Under the pieces are notes generated by a model that was not told the DNA's origin, ran no database searches, and saw only the letters and a list, made by a program, of their open reading frames with translations. DNA of 64,000 bases from an uncultured SAR86 cluster bacterium. Its GTDB lineage: Bacteria; Pseudomonadota; Gammaproteobacteria; Magnimaribacterales; Magnimaribacteraceae. The stretch spans positions 124,001 to 188,000 of the forward strand of contig CACOVO010000001.1 of the NCBI GenBank assembly GCA_902630715.1, in the 5' to 3' direction. A program made the position numbers and the translations under genes. Positions 4,207-13,509 of the stretch are shown piece by piece. Numbering within the stretch: position 1 is the first letter of the stretch; every line of letters starts with the position of its first letter.

Positions 4207-5307
4207 GTGAATAATTTAAATCTTTATAAAAATATTATTGCAAAGGAATCTAACCTGAACTTATTGGCCGAAAACATCAAGCATTGGTCTAAAGAGTTTG
4301 GCTTCAGCTCTGTCGGTATAACTGACATCGATCTGTCTGACGATAAAAGGTATTTAGATAGATGGTTAGAAAAGGGATATCACGGCGAGATGGAGTACAT
4401 GGAAAGAAATACAACCTTGAGGGAAAAACCATCGGAGCTAGTCAAAGGAACCAAGCGGATAATCTCTGTTACGATGAACTATCTCCCCGAATCTTATAAC
4501 GGCAAGGAACTTCTCCAAAAAAAAGACCAAGCTTTTGTATCTGGCTATGCTAGAGGTAGAGACTACCATAAGCTAATGAGATCAAGATTGAAGAAACTTG
4601 CAAAGAAAATTAAAGAGTATTCTCCTCACGAAAACAGAGTTTTCGTCGATAGCGCACCAATTCTTGAAAAGGCGATTGCCAGAAAGGCTGGCCTAGGCTG
4701 GATAGGCAAAAATACTCTTCTTATTAATAAAAATTCCGGTTCTTATTTTTTTCTAGGAGAAATATACACTGACCTCGAACTGCCTATTGATGAACCTCAC
4801 ACATCTTCTCATTGCGGAACTTGTAGCTCTTGTATGGATATTTGCCCTACTAAGGCATTCGAAGGTCCATACAAGTTAGATGCTAGAAAATGCATATCTT
4901 ATTTAACTATTGAGCATAAAGGATCAATAGATGAAGATTTGAGACCTCTAATGGGAAATAGGATATTCGGTTGTGACGATTGTCAGATTTATTGTCCTTG
5001 GAATAAGTTCACTAATTTTACTGAAGAAGAAGATTTCAAACCAAGACATAATCTAGATGATGTCGATTTATGCCAACTTTTTATGTGGTCTGAAGCAGAT
5101 TTTTACATCAAAACCGAAGGCTCTCCAATAAGGAGGGCTGGCTATGAGGGTTGGTTAAGAAATCTAGCTATTGCTTTAGGGAATGCAAATTATTCAGAGA
5201 AAATAGTTTTTACACTAAAACTTAGAGAAGACTTTCCTTCTGAGATAGTTAGAGAACATGTAATATGGGCTTTAGAAGAACAAAGGAAAAAATATGAGCG
5301 ATATTGA
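4207..5307 (+). CDS. queG: Epoxyqueuosine reductase QueG
   Basis: QueG reduces epoxyqueuosine to queuosine in tRNA, using cobalamin and two [4Fe-4S] clusters. The 366-residue protein has two ferredoxin-like cysteine sets: C203, C206, C209, C213 (HCGTCSSCMDICP) and C229, C256, C259, C263 (FGCDDCQIYCPW). The VDSAPILEKAIARKAGLGWIGKN block around 147-169 is a family hallmark. The chosen start is a GTG at 4207; no ATG lies close by. Queuosine synthesis from this enzyme needs cobalamin, so the cell must obtain it somehow; no clear cobalamin biosynthesis genes are seen here apart from the CobS/CobT-like pair at 48875-51641. It overlaps the next gene by 14 bases. Confidence 0.95.
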   Translation: MNNLNLYKNIIAKESNLNLLAENIKHWSKEFGFSSVGITDIDLSDDKRYLDRWLEKGYHGEMEYMERNTTLREKPSELVKGTKRIISVTMNYLPESYNGKELLQKKDQAFVSGYARGRDYHKLMRSRLKKLAKKIKEYSPHENRVFVDSAPILEKAIARKAGLGWIGKNTLLINKNSGSYFFLGEIYTDLELPIDEPHTSSHCGTCSSCMDICPTKAFEGPYKLDARKCISYLTIEHKGSIDEDLRPLMGNRIFGCDDCQIYCPWNKFTNFTEEEDFKPRHNLDDVDLCQLFMWSEADFYIKTEGSPIRRAGYEGWLRNLAIALGNANYSEKIVFTLKLREDFPSEIVREHVIWALEEQRKKYERY

Positions 5308-6307
5308 AATCAAACTGGAACCTCAGGATGAATACAATCATGCACCAGATGAGGCAACAAATTATAACGAGAGCATGTACTTTAATGTCTTTGATCATAA
5401 TAAGAAGATGGGAGGCTGGTTTAGGCTAGGTAATAGGGTCAACGAGGGTTATGCAGAGATGACCTGCTGTATTTACCTTCCCGATGGAAGAATAGGATTT
5501 ATGTTTGGGAGACCAGAGATAAGTACTAATGAAGTTTTTGATGCTGGTGGTATGAAGTTCGAAGTATTAGATCCTTTTAAGTCACTTAGAGTTCAATATA
5601 AAGGAAAAATACTATTACTAGATAACCCCATAGATATGCTTAATCCAAGTAAGGCCTTCAAAGAAAATCCAAGGGTCGAGTGCGAGGCAGACATAGCAAT
5701 AAGCGGAATATCACCTATGTTCGGAGGCCAAGCCGTGAGAAAAGACGGAAAGCCTCTTGAAAGAGATTCCGAAAAGAGTTTTTCAAAGGCACATTATGAG
5801 CAACATACTGCTGGAAAAGGCACTATAAAAATAAGTGACGATGAATGGCATATTGATGGCCTGGGGCTTAGAGATAAGAGCTGGGGTCCGAGATATTGGC
5901 AAGCTATAGAGTGGTATCGTTGGCTTACGATTAATATTAATGACGAAATAGGTTTTATGTTTAGCATAGTTCACCAAAGTGAGGATTCAGAGAGAAGAGG
6001 GGGGATTGTCCTAAAGGATGGCAAATACGAAATAATTAATGATTGTAAGATTGATACTGTTTACGATGAAAATCACTTTCAGAAAACCTTCAATGCTTGG
6101 GCAAAAACTGATGAGGGAGAGTATGAAGTTCAAGGCAAGGTTTTATCTTTAATACCCCTTCGCAACAGAAGAAATACTCCAGAAGGAGAAAGTCTTGTTA
6201 CAAGAATTACTGAAGGAATGACTGAGTATACCTACAATGGCATCGTGGGCTATGGAATGTCAGAGTATCTCGATCAAGTAATAGATGGAAAACCTATTGG
6301 CCCATGA
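5294..6307 (+). CDS. Hypothetical protein, CrtC/AttH lipocalin-like (DUF7064/DUF7065-like)
   Basis: This 337-residue protein has no signal peptide. Features seen are an N-terminal half rich in beta strand with many Trp/Gly pairs (MGGWFRLGNRVNEGYAEM), and a second half with DDEWHIDGLGLRDKSWGPRYWQAIEWYRWLT around 180-212. The pattern GxGxRDxSWGxR is what I recall from proteins related to hydroxyneurosporene hydratase CrtC and AttH, and from the uncharacterised DUF7064/7065 families. I cannot name a reaction. It overlaps queG by 14 bases and the flavin oxidoreductase by 4, so it is most likely co-translated with the latter and may act on the same small hydrophobic compound. Confidence 0.55.
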   Translation: MSDIEIKLEPQDEYNHAPDEATNYNESMYFNVFDHNKKMGGWFRLGNRVNEGYAEMTCCIYLPDGRIGFMFGRPEISTNEVFDAGGMKFEVLDPFKSLRVQYKGKILLLDNPIDMLNPSKAFKENPRVECEADIAISGISPMFGGQAVRKDGKPLERDSEKSFSKAHYEQHTAGKGTIKISDDEWHIDGLGLRDKSWGPRYWQAIEWYRWLTININDEIGFMFSIVHQSEDSERRGGIVLKDGKYEIINDCKIDTVYDENHFQKTFNAWAKTDEGEYEVQGKVLSLIPLRNRRNTPEGESLVTRITEGMTEYTYNGIVGYGMSEYLDQVIDGKPIGP

Positions 6308-7290
6308 AGATAAGTGTTGTTGATCAATCTCCAATATTCTCCAATTCCAATGCAGACAATGCTATTGAAGATACCAGAGAGTTAGCCAAGTATTGCGACA
6401 CTCTAGGATTAAATCGTTTTTGGCTAGCTGAACATCATGGCTCTAACTCTTTTGCAGGATGTTCTCCTGAAATATTAATTCCTAGCCTAGCCGCCCAAAC
6501 TGAAAAGATTAGAGTTGGTTCTGGAGGTGTAATGCTTATGCATTATAGTCCCTATAAAGTTGCCGAAAATTTCAGATTACTAGAATCCCTTTTTCCTAAC
6601 AGGATTGATTTAGGTTTAGGCAGAGCACCTGGAAGTGATGCATTTCAAGCCGGAGCATTAGCTTATGGTTCAAAAACTACTGGTCCTGAATTTTTTCCTA
6701 CTAAAATGAACGACCTACAATCCTTTTTACAAGGCACAATGTCTACAACTAAATCTTTTGAATCTGTGAACGTTACTCCCGGGCTTGGAGATATGCCGGA
6801 GGTTTGGTTACTTGTCTCCTCGAGACAAGGAGCTGAGTACGCTGCCCATTTTGGTTTACCCATGTCTTTGGCCTATTTTATTGATCCTTCTTGTATAGAT
6901 TTAGCGGATGTCTACCGTGACAATTTTCAACCATCTGCATTTGGTGATAAACCAAGGATAAGCGTAGGTGTTTTCTCTATTTGTGCTGATACAGATAAAG
7001 AGGCAGAAGAGCTTTCTCTAAGTGCGGCTGCGTGGAGACAGAATTCTCAGAAAGGTATATTCGGAGCTTTCCCTACTCTCGATGAGGCTAAAAAATCTGT
7101 CAATGGAAATTTACTAGAAACTAACGACAATAGAACCTTCGTAGGATCTCCTCAAACGGTCAGGCAGAAGCTAGAACCAGTCTTAGAAAAAGTTGATCCT
7201 GAGGAACTGAAAATAATTACAATTTGTGAACCTTTCTCTGCAAGAGTAAGGTCTTATGACCTAATAAAACAATCTTTCGCTCTGAATTAG
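6304..7290 (+). CDS. LLM-class flavin-dependent oxidoreductase (luciferase-like)
   Basis: The 328-residue protein has the bacterial-luciferase-like barrel fold: opening strand VVDQSPIF, FWLAEHHGSNSFAGCSPEI near 40-58, RIRVGSGGVMLMHYSPYKVAE near 72-95, and PNRIDLGLGRAPG near 98-112. This matches the MsnO8/YhbW-like subgroup of FMN- or F420-dependent monooxygenases and reductases. The substrate is unknown. The ATG overlaps the stop of the CrtC/AttH-like gene (ATGA) and it is followed 14 bases later by an MFS carrier, suggesting a small functional unit for modification and transport of one compound. Confidence 0.85.
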   Translation: MKISVVDQSPIFSNSNADNAIEDTRELAKYCDTLGLNRFWLAEHHGSNSFAGCSPEILIPSLAAQTEKIRVGSGGVMLMHYSPYKVAENFRLLESLFPNRIDLGLGRAPGSDAFQAGALAYGSKTTGPEFFPTKMNDLQSFLQGTMSTTKSFESVNVTPGLGDMPEVWLLVSSRQGAEYAAHFGLPMSLAYFIDPSCIDLADVYRDNFQPSAFGDKPRISVGVFSICADTDKEAEELSLSAAAWRQNSQKGIFGAFPTLDEAKKSVNGNLLETNDNRTFVGSPQTVRQKLEPVLEKVDPEELKIITICEPFSARVRSYDLIKQSFALN

Positions 7291-7304
7291 TCAAAACTGA
7301 ATAA

Positions 7305-8543
7305 ATGGAATTAATCAAATCTCGACTTCTTAGTGAAGGGAGTCCATGGCACATTGGGAGTTTGAGTGCTGTTTATCTTTCTCAAGGACTGTCAGGTGGA
7401 ACACTTTTTGCCTTAACAACCTATCTTGTTTCAATAGGCGCATCAGTGGGAGATATATCTTTGTTGTTGTCTATAACAATGATTCCTTGGACTCTTAAGG
7501 TCTTTCTAGGCCCAATAATTGATTCTTTTACCTTGAATAGATTTGGTAGAAGGCGATTTTGGATACTGATAAGCCAAGTAGCTATGATGTTAGCTGTTTT
7601 ACCTTTGGTTTTTATTGAAGTTGTAGAAGTAAATTTCATTCTAATCAGCCTTTTAACTATTCATAACTCTTTTGTGGCAATTTCAGATATATCAGTAGAT
7701 GCTCTTGCAGCTGATAGCCTTAGAGAAGACCAAATGGCTAATGCCAATGGCTTTATGTGGGGAAGCAAGACTTTGGGTCGAGGCTTTGGAATGGCCATAG
7801 CTACGTCAATATTTTATGGTTATGGCGTAAATGCTGGTTTTATGTCACTGATTTTCTTAATGTCTCTAGCATTTCTTTTTCCTTTATTTTCAAAAGAACT
7901 ATCACATAAAGCTGGCATGGAAGCAGAATCATACAAAAACAGACTTACTTTGAAGGAATTATTATCTGGGGTTAGTCAAAGCATGTTTAATTTGAGTGCC
8001 CTAGCAGCAATGACGTTTATGCTTTTTTCTAATATTGGATATGGAATTTTCGATGTTATTTATAATGAATTTTACATAGAAGAATTAGGGTGGTCTGGAG
8101 AGGACATCGGTTATTTAAGACCATTCGGTATGTGGCTTGGGGGCTTGATAGGCCTATCTGCAGGTATTCTCACAATGTACTTTAAACGCAGAAATTTATT
8201 ACTGCTCTTCATCGTAGGCCAAGCACTTGTTTTTCTTTCGGCAAGTACATTCACTTCCGATACTTCAGATTTTGTAGCTTCTATGGCTATTATCGGAGTA
8301 GATGCAGTAGATGCAGGCTGGTCTGTTCTGATATTTTCCATTCTCATGGCTTTATGTACTTCAAATACTAGCGCTACAAACTTTGGTATCTTTATGGGCT
8401 TTGGAAATATATCTATGCTTATAGGAAATAATATAGCACCTATGGTTTTAGGCTCAGGAAACTATAGTTTTGCGTTCATTTTTGCTGCTGCAAGTTTAAT
8501 TCCCTGTATTTTATGTGCGCATTATTTAACCAAAGAGAGTTAA
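7305..8543 (+). CDS. MFS transporter, AmpG/acetyl-CoA-transporter (PAT)-like
   Basis: This 412-residue inner-membrane protein has about 12 hydrophobic helices. The loop between helices 2 and 3 reads PWTLKVFLGPIIDSF then RFGRRRFWILISQ, which resembles the AmpG muropeptide permease and the PAT family. The conserved ISDISVDALAADSL after helix 4 also fits that family. AmpG proteins carry anhydromuropeptides inward, but the genetic setting (luciferase-like oxidoreductase and CrtC/AttH-like protein) gives no direct support for a cell-wall role, so the substrate is open. It is the last gene of the rightward group and converges on the MMPL exporter with a 4-base overlap. Confidence 0.75.
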   Translation: MELIKSRLLSEGSPWHIGSLSAVYLSQGLSGGTLFALTTYLVSIGASVGDISLLLSITMIPWTLKVFLGPIIDSFTLNRFGRRRFWILISQVAMMLAVLPLVFIEVVEVNFILISLLTIHNSFVAISDISVDALAADSLREDQMANANGFMWGSKTLGRGFGMAIATSIFYGYGVNAGFMSLIFLMSLAFLFPLFSKELSHKAGMEAESYKNRLTLKELLSGVSQSMFNLSALAAMTFMLFSNIGYGIFDVIYNEFYIEELGWSGEDIGYLRPFGMWLGGLIGLSAGILTMYFKRRNLLLLFIVGQALVFLSASTFTSDTSDFVASMAIIGVDAVDAGWSVLIFSILMALCTSNTSATNFGIFMGFGNISMLIGNNIAPMVLGSGNYSFAFIFAAASLIPCILCAHYLTKES

Positions 8544-10840
8544 AAAGTCCTTCTGTCGAATTTCACCAATAAATTTGGAAGAAGCAAAAAATTAATTAAT
8601 AAGCCCGACGTAAAACAAATTACAGAGAACTTTGCAAAATCTTGGATTGGAATAAAAGTCACAAGATTTAATACGCTGAAGCCTAGCACAAGAACAACTG
8701 CCATGATAATGAGTGCAAAGCCAACTGTTTCAAAAGAATAGTTAATTGAATCTTCAACTGACCTTTCCATCTCCTTTCTTGCAAGTTCGTATTTACTGAG
8801 AAAGTGAACGGTAAAATCTACTATCACACCTAATGTACTACCCATTCCTACTGCAACCATGAATCCAACATCTCCAACAAATAAACCCCATAAACCAAAG
8901 CCCATACCTATAGGAAGAATGTTTGGGAAAATTGACAATACAGGTAACAAGTAAGATCTAAAAAATAGTCCAATGATTAGTGTGATTAACAAAATGCCTA
9001 TAAATAAACCATATAAAAGAGAATTCACAATAGCTTCTACCATGTAAGTGAAAATAACCCTAAAAGAACTCGGTTCAGAAATTGTATTCTCTAATTTATT
9101 CTCTTTAAGATATCTTAATACCTCGTCATTAAATTCCTTGAATTCATTAGAACTCATGTCCTTCAGCGTTGCTGATATTTTTGTTGATTTTCTGTCTTGG
9201 CTTATTGAGCTATTTAAATCCAAACCCATGGGAAGAGACATCTCATAAAAAAATAAATATTGTGCTGATAAATCAGAATTATCAGGTATCTTTTTCCATT
9301 CTGGATCGTCTCCATGCATACTTTTATTTAAGCTTTTCATATTATTTGCAAGGGAAGTCACATGATTAACCTGTTCTCTTTCAGCTAGCCAGACAGAGAA
9401 ATTATCTAAAATCTCTAAGAATTCAGGATCTGAAACTTGCCCTTCATCGTTAGTAGCTAAAAAATTAATGGGAAAAGTCACGCTTAGCTTCTCATCTAAC
9501 CATAAGGTGTCTGAAGAAAAAGTAGTGAAGCCTTCATCGTACATTTGAGTAGGATTTTCATCTAATTCATTCAGAGGAATGCAGAGAAAAATTAAAAATG
9601 CAACAGAAGTTACTGAAAAAAGAAGTTTATTGCTGTTTCTGAGGATGAAAGAACCGATTGAGGCGGAGAATCTTGTTTGTTCTAAAACCTTTGAAGAAGT
9701 CTTTACTTCGAAGAAAGACACAATAGGTGCAATAAAGAAAATAGTAAATATAAAAGCAAACCCGATTCCAATAGCAACCGCATTGCCTAAATCTCTTAAG
9801 GGAGGGACTTCAATAAAATTTAAACAGAGAAAACCAATGCAAGTTGAGATAGTCGTAAGAAATAATGGCTGAATATTCATTTCAAGGCTCTTTTCCATGG
9901 AATCTCTTGAAGAGATGCCTTTAACTCTATTTTGAAAATATATGGAAAACAAATGAATACAATCTGCAAGAGCCAAAGTTATTATGAGAATGGGAATTGT
10001 TGTAACCATTTGATTCAGAGGGTTGCCTAGTAACCCAACTGAGCCAAATGTAGCAAAAAGACTCATAAGAATGACCACGAAAGTAGCCAAAACTGCAATG
10101 TAGCTTCTGATCATGAGAAATACTATAAAAAAGATAAGCATCATCATGAGGGGCATCACTATAGGCATTTCTGCTTTTACGATCCTTGGGCTAATGTAGT
10201 CCATGTAGGGATTGCCTAAAAGTCTAATATCCAAATTCTTATTATTTTCTTTTATTGGCTTTACGAATTCTAATATGTAATCAATTATCTCAGTGTTCTG
10301 AGCCTCTTTATTGGGCCCCGGAGGATCAATTATGATGCTTACCACGGAGGTCTTTTTATCCTCAGAAATGAGTGATTTATATATGATTTCTTCACCTGAC
10401 ACTATATTCTCCCTCTTTGCTAAGAAGTCAGAGCTCTTCTCTTCAGCATCTTCTATGAAGGGCTCTACTATCAGATCATCTTTGATCGACTGCACATAAG
10501 AATAATTAGTAAGACTATCTATTCTGACTGAGTAGGGTATGGTCCAGGACTTTTGAGTTAGTTCTTCTATAACTTTTAAACTCTCCTTATTAAACAAAGT
10601 TTCTTCTTTAGAATGCACAGCGATTATCAAGTTATCAGTGGGGATAAACATATCGTCAATTTCGTTATATCTAAGAACGGCAGGATGACCTTCCGGGAAA
10701 TAGGTTTCTAAATCAGGATTAAATGTTAATTTTGTTAATCCAGTTGAAAGTAAGAAAACTATAAGAGCAGTCAACCCTATAGAGAGATATCTATATTTGA
10801 TTAATAATTTCGAAAAGTCCTTTGTATCAATAATTTTCAT
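8540..10840 (-). CDS. MMPL/RND-superfamily exporter
   Basis: The 766-residue protein has the RND layout: one N-terminal helix (about 16-32), a large periplasmic loop, a block of helices near 225-380, a second periplasmic loop, and a last helical block near 600-760. The sequence DFTVHFLSKYELAR near residue 690 resembles the sterol-sensing/MMPL core. Length and topology fit MMPL/HpnN-type exporters, which move lipids or other hydrophobic molecules rather than metals. It is the last gene of the TetR/LolA-like/barrel operon, 4 bases after the barrel gene. It probably delivers a lipid from the inner membrane to the LolA-like carrier; that is inferred from the gene partners. Confidence 0.85.
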   Translation of the reverse strand: MKIIDTKDFSKLLIKYRYLSIGLTALIVFLLSTGLTKLTFNPDLETYFPEGHPAVLRYNEIDDMFIPTDNLIIAVHSKEETLFNKESLKVIEELTQKSWTIPYSVRIDSLTNYSYVQSIKDDLIVEPFIEDAEEKSSDFLAKRENIVSGEEIIYKSLISEDKKTSVVSIIIDPPGPNKEAQNTEIIDYILEFVKPIKENNKNLDIRLLGNPYMDYISPRIVKAEMPIVMPLMMMLIFFIVFLMIRSYIAVLATFVVILMSLFATFGSVGLLGNPLNQMVTTIPILIITLALADCIHLFSIYFQNRVKGISSRDSMEKSLEMNIQPLFLTTISTCIGFLCLNFIEVPPLRDLGNAVAIGIGFAFIFTIFFIAPIVSFFEVKTSSKVLEQTRFSASIGSFILRNSNKLLFSVTSVAFLIFLCIPLNELDENPTQMYDEGFTTFSSDTLWLDEKLSVTFPINFLATNDEGQVSDPEFLEILDNFSVWLAEREQVNHVTSLANNMKSLNKSMHGDDPEWKKIPDNSDLSAQYLFFYEMSLPMGLDLNSSISQDRKSTKISATLKDMSSNEFKEFNDEVLRYLKENKLENTISEPSSFRVIFTYMVEAIVNSLLYGLFIGILLITLIIGLFFRSYLLPVLSIFPNILPIGMGFGLWGLFVGDVGFMVAVGMGSTLGVIVDFTVHFLSKYELARKEMERSVEDSINYSFETVGFALIIMAVVLVLGFSVLNLVTFIPIQDFAKFSVICFTSGLLINFLLLPNLLVKFDRRTF

Positions 10841-10844
10841 AACC

Positions 10845-12002
10845 TTATAAATAGTAAATAAACTCTGCCCTTAAAAAGTCATCTTCCTTAAAAGCTTGAA
10901 ATAATTTTTTTTGACCATTATCTTCTTCAGTATCATCAAAATAAATTCCTTCTAGCGACAGCAAGCAACATTCTCCAATTCTCCTTGAAGCCTCAAGAAG
11001 GAAGCCCAACTCCTTTGACTTATCATTGAGAATGAATCCTGAGAGTATCTGAGAGTCATAGATATCATTAAAACTAAACCTAGTCCCAAGAACAAAAGGC
11101 GAACTTTCCAGTCTATCATCGTGATTGAATTCGACTACCCAACCTAAATCAATCCTTGATTGAAGAACACCAACTTGCGTGTACTCCAATCCATAAGTTG
11201 CTGCTGTAAATCTTTCACCTTGTCCGGATCGAGAAATTACTTCTCCTTTGATTGCAAGGCTATCTAATAGATATTGAATCTCAAGCCCAGTCTGGTCTAT
11301 GACTTCATATACAGGTACAAGCTCATTGATCTTATTAGCCGAGGGCAAAAATCTCGGTTCTCTTGAAGTGCCTGAAAAATGAGAAATTGCTATGTCAAAA
11401 TCGTCATAGTAATTAGACCACCTGACAGCAAAGTCGGCTCTTTTATTTTTTGAAGATGATGAATAAAGTGAGCCCTTCTCGTTGATAGGTAAAGGCAACC
11501 TCAATCTTCCTTTCTTTCCAGAAAAATTCCTTTCTCGAAAACCTAGTAGAGTATAAATATCAAGAAGACCCCATTGTCTTTCTAATGAGATCTTGATCAT
11601 AGGCTGACCAAGCTTTTCTTCTCCATCAAATCCTTCAGTAAAATCAGTTTGATTTATTATATCCACCCTGTGAGAAGTCTCAGTAACACCCCAGAATTCC
11701 TTACTTACTCCGTATTTGATTTCCTTATCTTCAAGAATATTTATCAAATAAAGCTCCTGAATATCATTTAAATTTCTTCCTGAATCTTCACTATCTTTTC
11801 TAAGTTTGACCTTGAAATGAAATATTCTATTGGAGTTATCTTGAAAAATTTCTGGGGAAAATGAAAAAGAAGTGTGGTTCTTTTTTTGCTCCTGCAGCCC
11901 TGCATTAAAAAAATACCTATTATCAAATGAAAGCTCGCCAATTATCTCACCTAGAATAAGCTGTGAAAATAAAATGGAAATCATTAAAAGGCTCTTAGGC
12001 AT
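10845..12002 (-). CDS. Predicted outer-membrane beta-barrel protein
   Basis: The 385-residue product has a signal peptide (MPKSLLMISILFSQLILG) and then alternating amphipathic strands throughout, for example GLEIQYLLDSLAIKGEVISR and RIDLGWVVEFNHD. It ends in EFIYYL, an outer-membrane-protein style terminal strand with an aromatic-rich end. I do not recognise a specific family; it is comparable in size to DUF1302-like proteins that travel with MMPL exporters. Spaced 3 bases from the LolA-like gene and 4 from the exporter, it is the probable outer-membrane partner of that pair. Function is inferred from context only. Confidence 0.65.
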   Translation of the reverse strand: MPKSLLMISILFSQLILGEIIGELSFDNRYFFNAGLQEQKKNHTSFSFSPEIFQDNSNRIFHFKVKLRKDSEDSGRNLNDIQELYLINILEDKEIKYGVSKEFWGVTETSHRVDIINQTDFTEGFDGEEKLGQPMIKISLERQWGLLDIYTLLGFRERNFSGKKGRLRLPLPINEKGSLYSSSSKNKRADFAVRWSNYYDDFDIAISHFSGTSREPRFLPSANKINELVPVYEVIDQTGLEIQYLLDSLAIKGEVISRSGQGERFTAATYGLEYTQVGVLQSRIDLGWVVEFNHDDRLESSPFVLGTRFSFNDIYDSQILSGFILNDKSKELGFLLEASRRIGECCLLSLEGIYFDDTEEDNGQKKLFQAFKEDDFLRAEFIYYL

Positions 12003-12005
12003 AAA

Positions 12006-12806
12006 CTATCTTGATCTTTTCAAACTGTTTTGCGAAAAATCTCTATCAGTAAAACCACTTTTAAGTTTTACATCATCAAATATTAAAATGGATTTTTTAC
12101 CATTCTGATGATTTATCATCTCAATTTCATGAGGCTGCCAAAAGAATCCTTCGTATTTTCTATAATCTTTGAATAACTGTGTCTTCAGGTGAAAAGATTT
12201 ACGATCGAAATGATGTATCTTTTGAACGAGATAATTTTCTTTATCTATCCAAACTAACTGTTTTGTATATCCTGAATAGGGGTCTAAGGGCTTCCTCTCA
12301 ATTACGTAACAGGGATTGTTAAGATAGATTTCCTCTTCTAAATACACGTATTCGTATTTCTCAACTTCTTGGAAAGAAAAGTCCTCAAATGAAAATTCAC
12401 TCCCCAAAAACGGTCCAGATTTATTTTTTGAAGCAATCCTTTTAACTCTTTTTAGGGCCGGCAAATATAACCACTGATCATCCGCTTCAACTTTGTGAGC
12501 ATAGGATAATATAGCAACACCTTTAACATCTCTCGGGCTTTCAAAAATCGCAATAGACTTATCGCCGTCAGTGGGAACTTCTAGTCTTTTAAATCTAAGT
12601 TTTCTTGTAACGACATCACCCCTTTTATTAATCAATTTCATTGTCATCGTAGAGGAGCTATCAATGAAGCCATCATTATTCTTATCACTGAGGATGGCAA
12701 TTTCTAGACCTTTGTTAGCAGACAGATCACCCGTGATGCAGGCTAAAGTCATACTCATCGCAAGAACTATAAATTGTTTGTTCATTAAATTACTTAAAAC
12801 TTTCAT
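12006..12806 (-). CDS. LolA-like outer membrane lipoprotein-sorting family protein
   Basis: The 266-residue protein has a signal peptide (core FIVLAMSMTLACITG) and no clear anchor. The body reads MKLINKRGDVVTRKLRFKR, then DVKGVAILSY, DDQWLYLPALKRVKRI and GPFLGSEFSFEDFS, which is the typical signature of the LolA-like family annotated as outer membrane lipoprotein-sorting protein. Such proteins have a half-barrel that can hold an acyl chain. Its ATG overlaps the end of the TetR gene by 4 bases, and the barrel gene follows 3 bases later. With the MMPL exporter this looks like a periplasmic lipid carrier. A Ca-binding-like loop DKNNDGFID at about 37-45 is common in the family. Confidence 0.8.
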   Translation of the reverse strand: MKVLSNLMNKQFIVLAMSMTLACITGDLSANKGLEIAILSDKNNDGFIDSSSTMTMKLINKRGDVVTRKLRFKRLEVPTDGDKSIAIFESPRDVKGVAILSYAHKVEADDQWLYLPALKRVKRIASKNKSGPFLGSEFSFEDFSFQEVEKYEYVYLEEEIYLNNPCYVIERKPLDPYSGYTKQLVWIDKENYLVQKIHHFDRKSFHLKTQLFKDYRKYEGFFWQPHEIEMINHQNGKKSILIFDDVKLKSGFTDRDFSQNSLKRSR

Positions 12807-13462
12807 ATACTAAATTCTCCATAAAGATTATTAATTACTTTTTTTGATCCTACGCTCAAATAAGGCTCAGAAGCCTTAATGAGTAGTCTCATTCCTCTTC
12901 GCACTAAAAATTCTTCATCTTTATCTGGGTATTTCTTGGATGAAAGGGCAAACCAGTTATCTGCTAGAAGAAAAATAATTTCACTTAATTCCTCAATCTC
13001 ATTATCTTTAAAATCGAAGACACCAACCTCTCTTCCTATCAAAGCTTCTTCTTTTATCTTATTAAACCTCAATACTGTAAGATCATTTAACTTACTAGCT
13101 AGAGATCTGTCATTGGAAAAGTTGTTCACAAGATTATCCCTAAATAAATATCTAAAATCCCAGTTGAAATAGTATTGAGAAAAAAGCTTCTTTATTAGGA
13201 TTTCAAGATCGATCCTATCTACTCTTTCGAGTTTAAGACTTATATTTTCTTTAAAGAGTTCGATATGCGACTCAACTAAATTCTTTTTTGATTTGAAGTG
13301 ATACCAAAGATTTCCTTCACGCACATTGGAAGATGATGCTAGAAGAGAGGTGGTGACGCTGACATATCCCTTCTTATTGAATAACTCGAGACTCTTTTTT
13401 AGTAATTTATCTCTAGTAGAGTCAGAAAATAAACTTAAGGTTCTTTCGGATAGATCTATCAT
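12803..13462 (-). CDS. TetR-family transcriptional regulator
   Basis: This 219-residue repressor-type protein has the N-terminal helix-turn-helix (LLKKSLELFNKKGYVSVTTSLLASSSNVREGNLWYHFKSKKNLVE, about 19-63) with the WYHFKSKK recognition-helix end typical of TetR proteins, and an all-helical ligand/dimer domain. It is the first gene of the operon with the LolA-like, barrel and MMPL genes. Two 18-bp palindromes lie directly against its start codon and over the promoter, so autorepression is strongly suggested. The ligand is unknown; a lipid or hydrophobic compound handled by the exporter is the obvious guess. There is no clear ribosome binding site before the ATG. Confidence 0.9.
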   Translation of the reverse strand: MIDLSERTLSLFSDSTRDKLLKKSLELFNKKGYVSVTTSLLASSSNVREGNLWYHFKSKKNLVESHIELFKENISLKLERVDRIDLEILIKKLFSQYYFNWDFRYLFRDNLVNNFSNDRSLASKLNDLTVLRFNKIKEEALIGREVGVFDFKDNEIEELSEIIFLLADNWFALSSKKYPDKDEEFLVRRGMRLLIKASEPYLSVGSKKVINNLYGEFSI

Positions 13463-13480: not shown

Positions 13481-13509
13481 ATTATTAGGGTATTCACCCT
13501 AAAAGTCAA
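13481..13509 (-). promoter_or_regulatory. Promoter of the tetR-LolA-like-barrel-MMPL operon
   Basis: Reading leftward, TTGACT (13509-13504, five of six) and AATAAT (13486-13481, five of six) are separated by exactly 17 bases. The expected start lies about 11 bases before the ATG at 13462, giving a very short leader. The distal operator fills the spacer and the proximal operator covers the start. Confidence 0.65.
13485..13502. promoter_or_regulatory. TetR operator, distal copy
   Basis: The second exact copy of the 18-bp palindrome (arms TTAGGGT/ACCCTAA). It occupies nearly all of the 17-base spacer between the candidate -35 and -10 boxes. The spacing of 22 bases between copies is about two helical turns, so two repressor dimers could bind on one face of the DNA. 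Confidence 0.8.

Follow-up and report, generated by a model that had tools for sequence, protein, structure and literature searches.

A conserved RND pump, LolA-like carrier and outer-membrane barrel in SAR86: a candidate trans-envelope transporter for lipid-like molecules under optional TetR control

In an uncultured SAR86 cluster bacterium, four genes lie close together on the minus strand of the contig CACOVO010000001.1 (assembly GCA_902630715.1, 1.26 Mb, 63.7% complete), at positions 8540-13462 of the 64,000-nucleotide stretch that was analysed (hereafter the window). Spacings range from -4 to +4 bases: tetR overlaps the LolA-like gene by 4 bases, the LolA-like and barrel genes are 3 bases apart and a gap of 4 bases separates the barrel gene from the MMPL gene (Table 1). 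All four open reading frames, described by the initial annotation as closely spaced with gaps or overlaps of 3 to 4 bases, were confirmed on that strand, and its assignment of three of them to a pump, a LolA-like protein and an outer-membrane barrel agrees with Pfam matches for the pump and the carrier and with a predicted fold for the barrel. A valine-degradation operon lies upstream. The genes downstream (5294-8543), encoding an MFS transporter, a luciferase-like monooxygenase and DUF7064/DUF7065 proteins, are convergent to the operon and syntenic in SAR86, and the MFS gene shares 4 bases with the stop end of the MMPL gene. Because the order of the neighbours is kept in SAR86 relatives, it is a matter of synteny and no evidence of function, and the valine-degradation, MFS and luciferase-like genes offer no biosynthetic partner for the cargo.

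Table 1. Genes and predicted regulatory features of the operon, in window coordinates.
Feature	Position	Strand	Basis or detail
MMPL/HAE3-type RND inner-membrane pump, 766 aa	8540-10840	minus	PF03176
18-strand outer-membrane beta-barrel, 385 aa	10845-12002	minus	AlphaFold2, VIA-align
PF17131 LolA-like periplasmic carrier, 266 aa	12006-12806	minus	Pfam, phmmer to solved structures
TetR-family repressor, 219 aa	12803-13462	minus	PF00440, PF13972
Operator 2 (predicted), TTAGGGT-ATTC-ACCCTAA	13463-13480		directly before tetR start codon
sigma-70-like promoter	13481-13509	minus	TTGACT (13509-13504), 17-base spacer, AATAAT (13486-13481); consensus match only
Operator 1 (predicted), TTAGGGT-ATTC-ACCCTAA	13485-13502		spacer between -35 and -10

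The first gene of the operon encodes a TetR-family protein matching PF00440 (TetR_N, 37.3 bits against a cut-off of 24) and PF13972 (44.3 bits). The doubled palindrome ahead of it occurs once in the window and in none of 100 shuffles, and the single palindrome, with up to 2 mismatches allowed, has no further site in the assembled part of the genome. Operator 2 begins just past the -10 box and reaches the tetR start codon; with one copy in the spacer and one behind the -10 box, a bound repressor would block the promoter. The same motif is present in every tetR-carrying relative with upstream DNA at hand and missing from the tetR-less relatives. In the nearest relative (G008, loci L003 and L027), whose barrel is 94% identical, tetR and the operators have been lost: the LolA-like gene is now found closely behind the valine-degradation operon, and a scar ahead of its start, AGAATTTAGTAT, matches the 3' end of the window's tetR letter for letter. 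Other Gammaproteobacteria carry TetR proteins of different, unrelated C-terminal classes at the same place. By sequence evidence, TetR control of the window's operon is real, yet optional and replaceable, and the tetR-less relatives rule out the repressor as a part of the conserved machine. The dedicated repressor of the initial annotation is thus retained in so far as its promoter carries a doubled operator that matches it, but not as a fixed component, given G008 and the unrelated TetR classes elsewhere. The accompanying suggestion that the cargo or a toxic lipid acts as inducer is weak, since close relatives live without tetR and operators.

Pumps of the RND/MMPL family use the proton gradient to extract hydrophobic or amphipathic substrates from the inner membrane, and RND proteins are by family proton-driven exporters. 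The window's pump exceeds the Pfam cut-off for PF03176 (MMPL; 83.9 bits against 20.5), and its best NCBIfam match is the HAE3 model TIGR00921, at 147.4 bits against a cut-off of 351.9; because this score falls below the cut-off, the pump is termed HAE3-type and not an HAE3 member. The NCBIfam models for HpnN scored far under their cut-offs. Two acidic residues, Asp293 in a segment like TM4 and Asp675 in one like TM10, do not vary among 11 aligned sequences. A hydropathy scan made the two halves of the protein visible and gave no clean count of 12 transmembrane helices. An apparent giant pump of 24,526 aa in genome G236 was rejected as an artefact, the sequence record containing a long stretch of N there.

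The carrier matches PF17131 (LolA_like) at 199.2 bits, against a Pfam cut-off of 30, and the solved structure 3bk5 with an E-value of 1.3e-72 (phmmer); 9tp6, 4z48 and 3buu were also matched. PF03548, the family of LolA proper, was not matched in Pfam, and PF07044 (DUF1329) reached 25.0 bits (cut-off 23.1) over 57 residues only, PF17131 scoring far higher. Residues 1 to about 29 resemble a cleavable signal peptide, and an alignment with relatives revealed no conserved lipobox cysteine. Among SAR86 relatives, the LolA-like gene is found at 71-94% identity. LolA-fold proteins ferry acyl chains through the periplasm. In two further SAR86 genomes (G026, contig 6, 31425-32066; G029, contig 77, 2847-3488), a 474-aa open reading frame with a broken PF17131 match is possibly of the DUF1329 type.

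The barrel is the least conspicuous of the three parts in terms of family models: it has no Pfam or NCBIfam match and, even at an E-value of 5, no Pfam match, PF06980 included. An AlphaFold2 model built from 26 sequences reached a pLDDT of 77, and one built from 45 sequences a mean pLDDT of 84.8 and a pTM of 0.80. The model consists of 18 strands between residues 19 and 384, preceded by a signal-peptide-like start (about residues 1-18). Aligned with VIA-align, it superposes on AlgE (3rbh_A) with a Z-score of 20.0 and an rmsd of 3.9 over 297 residues and, more generally, on AlgE and OprD-type 18-strand barrels with Z-scores near 20 and an rmsd of about 4 over some 300 residues, in agreement with Foldseek. 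Hence the predicted structure, which could have turned out to have no barrel-like shape, is that of an 18-strand barrel. Since sequence identity to the AlgE and OprD-type barrels is about 9%, these superpositions speak for the fold and not for the function; AlgE, OprD-type and other 18-strand barrels ranked equal in VIA-align, so that the model is assigned to no narrower barrel class, and a search of solved structures with the barrel profile returned no sequence match. The C-terminal residues of the relatives' barrels are aromatic, an expected trait of barrels that the standard assembly machinery inserts.

The most conserved segment of the barrel is a loop and not a strand. Loop L3 (residues 103-132) has a mean conservation of 0.84 and 13 positions conserved at 95% or more, including W104, G105, D114, N117, Q118, D120, D126 and K130, and is followed by a loop L4 with conserved arginines. 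Strand counting puts L3 on the outer side. The loop would probably dip into the lumen and act as a gate; model confidence is low at residues 112-129. With regard to ancestry, PF06980 (DUF1302) is matched by 4 of the 26 members of the barrel alignment (best E-value 2.8e-5; the window's own barrel is not among them). Bacteroidetes operons with TetR, MMPL and LolA-like genes encode in third place a barrel of 408-436 aa, which is a clear DUF1302 member (E-value 1e-15), and the profile of the window-type barrel aligns with these partner barrels with a probability of 89.6 and an E-value of 1.9e-6 (hhalign). The DUF1302 matches and the profile link to Bacteroidetes place the barrel, as a divergent branch, in the DUF1302 group, to which AmeA (see below) belongs. 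The same evidence rules out a wholly new family, the possibility raised by the initial annotation.

To what extent the three envelope genes belong together was surveyed in 369 gammaproteobacterial genomes, of which 123 carry a total of 130 barrels. At least 103 of the 130 barrel genes have a PF17131 gene immediately upstream on the same strand, with a median gap of 59 bases among those listed. A close-type pump is encoded in 118 of the 123 barrel genomes and, in the absence of a barrel, in 4 genomes; it lies within 3.5 kb of 87 of the 130 barrels. Linkage is judged from these counts, since a Fisher test on them leaves the relatedness of the genomes uncorrected. Barrel and exporter, whose separation in relatives had been named as a reason to give up the trans-envelope reading, are thus seldom found one without the other. 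In some genomes the pump stands apart from the pair, as in the one-contig genome G221, where about 1 Mb separates it from the LolA-like and barrel genes. In the SAR86 family of the window, barrel, carrier and pump are adjacent in every genome whose locus is left uncut by contig ends; in the other SAR86 families, 66 genomes were sampled and none of the three was found. Overall, the trio is found in about one third of the sampled gammaproteobacterial genomes, two thirds being without it. The gene order is LolA-barrel-MMPL in SAR86 and TetR-MMPL-LolA-barrel elsewhere in Gammaproteobacteria, from which it follows that the set was rearranged yet stayed together. Kept and linked in hundreds of genomes, the set cannot be due to chance, and the survey supports the three envelope parts as a conserved unit.

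In several Gammaproteobacteria, the trio occupies housekeeping-like syntenic positions. At the loci L092, L097, L100, L112 and L114-L116, its neighbour is a gene whose product, about 1,160-1,190 aa long, is Mfd-like as judged by eye. The position next to this gene in many Gammaproteobacteria suggests an old vertical inheritance at one site.

Several systems built from comparable parts have been studied. In Castellaniella defragrans, deletion of AmeABCD lowered monoterpene tolerance and increased the accumulation of Nile Red (PMC6394551). Like the window's operon, AmeABCD groups an HAE3-type RND pump, a LolA-superfamily periplasmic protein and a DUF1302-type barrel. However, AmeB is a DUF1329 protein of 451 aa, whereas the 266-aa carrier of the window is a PF17131 protein with a partial DUF1329 match only; the AmeA barrel has 605 aa, against 385 aa for the far diverged barrel of the window; and the Ame cargo consists of monoterpenes. 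No counterpart of AmeC (COG4447) was found in the window's operon or among its neighbours. The window's set is a variant distinct from Ame: PF17131 replaces DUF1329, no AmeC gene accompanies it and the barrel is shorter and far diverged. In Pseudomonas putida, PP_0765 (DUF1302), PP_0766 (DUF1329), PP_2018 and PP_2019 (RND) are needed for the metabolism of Tween 20, their mutants showing a common growth phenotype on it, and mutual contacts were predicted, those of the LolA-like protein with the pump and the barrel being weak (PMC10866462). The three kinds of part are the same, but they are spread over two loci, are joined by an extra periplasmic protein and include DUF1329 in place of PF17131.

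In T. oleivorans, TOL_3187, which contains MMPL and LolA-like domains, and TOL_3188, a porin-like protein with no known domain, rise strongly on the n-C28 alkane (PMC6304351). Compared by description, this arrangement of MMPL and LolA-like domains followed by a domainless porin-like protein is similar to that of the window, with the difference that pump and carrier are fused and induced by n-C28. The TetR-MMPL-LolA-DUF1302 operons of Bacteroidetes (PG1175-1181 of P. gingivalis; L047-L057) contain the same parts, with LolA-like proteins 26-33% identical and a barrel related by profile, but they differ in their induction by low iron, reported for the P. gingivalis relatives (PMC10434189), in the extra ABC genes of P. 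gingivalis and in a barrel that is a clear DUF1302 member. The hopanoid RND transporter HpnN and the MmpL proteins share the pump family, but no barrel partner is described for HpnN. Altogether, the studied relatives support a hydrophobic cargo and disagree on its direction. A literature search outside subscription journals and preprints retrieved no name for, or study of, exactly this trio.

Favoured here, with a probability of roughly 0.6, is the reading that the three parts form a transporter across the envelope; its cargo would be an amphipathic small molecule of lipid-like character, and its direction most likely outward. As expected from the RND/MMPL family, the pump would take the molecule out of the inner membrane using the proton gradient. 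The LolA-like protein would then take it into its hydrophobic groove, as its fold suggests, and carry it over the periplasm. Finally, the loaded carrier may dock on the 18-strand barrel, through which the molecule would reach the surface or the outer leaflet, the conserved loop L3, probably folded into the lumen, serving as gate. In the window's strain, TetR would repress its own operon at the two operators over the promoter, this control being an optional add-on.

A distant version of the set informs on direction. In genome G435 (L110:2244-11785, contig 15), pump and carrier are fused into one protein of 1048 aa, followed by a DUF1302-like barrel, and share a cluster with a nonribosomal peptide synthetase (condensation-adenylation-carrier-thioesterase), an acyl-CoA dehydrogenase-like gene and a phosphopantetheinyl transferase. 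Its gene content makes L110 a likely natural-product cluster that includes a dedicated exporter across the envelope. The fusion shows that pump and carrier are functionally coupled, and the peptide-synthetase setting favours the putative export of an acylated product there. As this trio is a distant paralogue, its cargo need not equal that of SAR86. On balance, a lipid-like cargo appears likely, and putative export more likely than uptake. The trans-envelope lipid export proposed at the outset is thereby sustained in its parts, folds and linkage, while its outward direction is inferred, the literature on relatives pointing both to efflux and to growth on hydrophobic substrates.

Part of that literature suits a reverse flow. 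In this case, external hydrophobic substrates (fatty acids, esters or alkanes) would enter through the barrel, be carried inward by the LolA-like protein and reach the RND protein, which would hand them to the inner membrane or keep toxic excess out. The need for the DUF1302, DUF1329, PP_2018 and RND PP_2019 proteins on Tween 20 (PMC10866462) and the n-C28 induction of the MMPL-LolA fusion with its porin-like partner (PMC6304351) fit such a role, but the AmeABCD data point to efflux (PMC6394551), the trio relative within the peptide-synthetase cluster fits product export and RND proteins are generally proton-driven exporters, so that uptake is considered unlikely. Alternatively, the pathway could end in the outer membrane, with the barrel acting as receptor there and inserting a hopanoid-like, sterol-like or polyprenoid-like structural lipid, of which nothing would be released outside. 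HAE3 includes the hopanoid transporter HpnN (PMC8277102; PMC6394551), proteins with a LolA fold normally deliver to the outer membrane and the housekeeping-like syntenic positions mentioned above would suit such a task. However, HpnN works without periplasmic or barrel partners (PMC6394551), and a lipid whose genes are missing from two thirds of the sampled genomes and from the other SAR86 families is not universal; this reading is held to be more doubtful still.

An alternative route of lipoprotein sorting (Lol), as implied by the Pfam name of PF17131, draws on the family name and the fold only and is most improbable. The pump is of the RND type and not an ABC LolCDE complex, and the acceptor is a barrel and not LolB. 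Moreover, the relatives G005, G019 and G024 carry ordinary LolA (PF03548) as a separate gene besides the PF17131 protein, on which ground the trio was rejected as a Lol substitute.

The outward transporter may also be tied to the cell wall. Several relatives of the barrel carry an N-terminal SPOR domain (L091:8239-9831, L100:6918-8399, L101:5935-7587 and L080:1012-2634) and one carries an N-terminal AMIN domain (L105:7968-9728), while at L041 a separate SPOR gene (6831-7784) lies between carrier and barrel. The SAR86 barrel contains neither a SPOR nor an AMIN domain. The joining of unrelated peptidoglycan-binding domains to the same barrel suggests that wall anchoring matters. A bolder and tentative extension, rather unlikely as a whole, would make the trio a wall-anchored general secretion route for a surface lipid or lipopeptide in about one third of gammaproteobacterial genomes, in which the barrel would be fastened to peptidoglycan, either through a SPOR or AMIN domain of its own or through a separate SPOR protein, L3 would be a carrier-operated gate and the LolA-like shuttle would stand in place of the fixed adaptor tunnel of classical RND systems.

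The trio is real, conserved and coherent, and it looks like a common but uncharacterised envelope route for a fatty or oily molecule. It is not covered as a unit by any curated family model, and its outer-membrane part is annotated merely as hypothetical. A pump, a carrier with solved structures and a barrel with one conserved loop make up a defined set with which cargo and direction can be tested. If the proposed function is correct, a common class of gammaproteobacteria would use an RND system with a shuttle to export, or import, a hydrophobic molecule, and PF17131, now named for lipoprotein sorting, would be given a likelier role. For SAR86, an abundant uncultured group of the ocean with a small genome, the trio would then mark a family-specific trait of the envelope.
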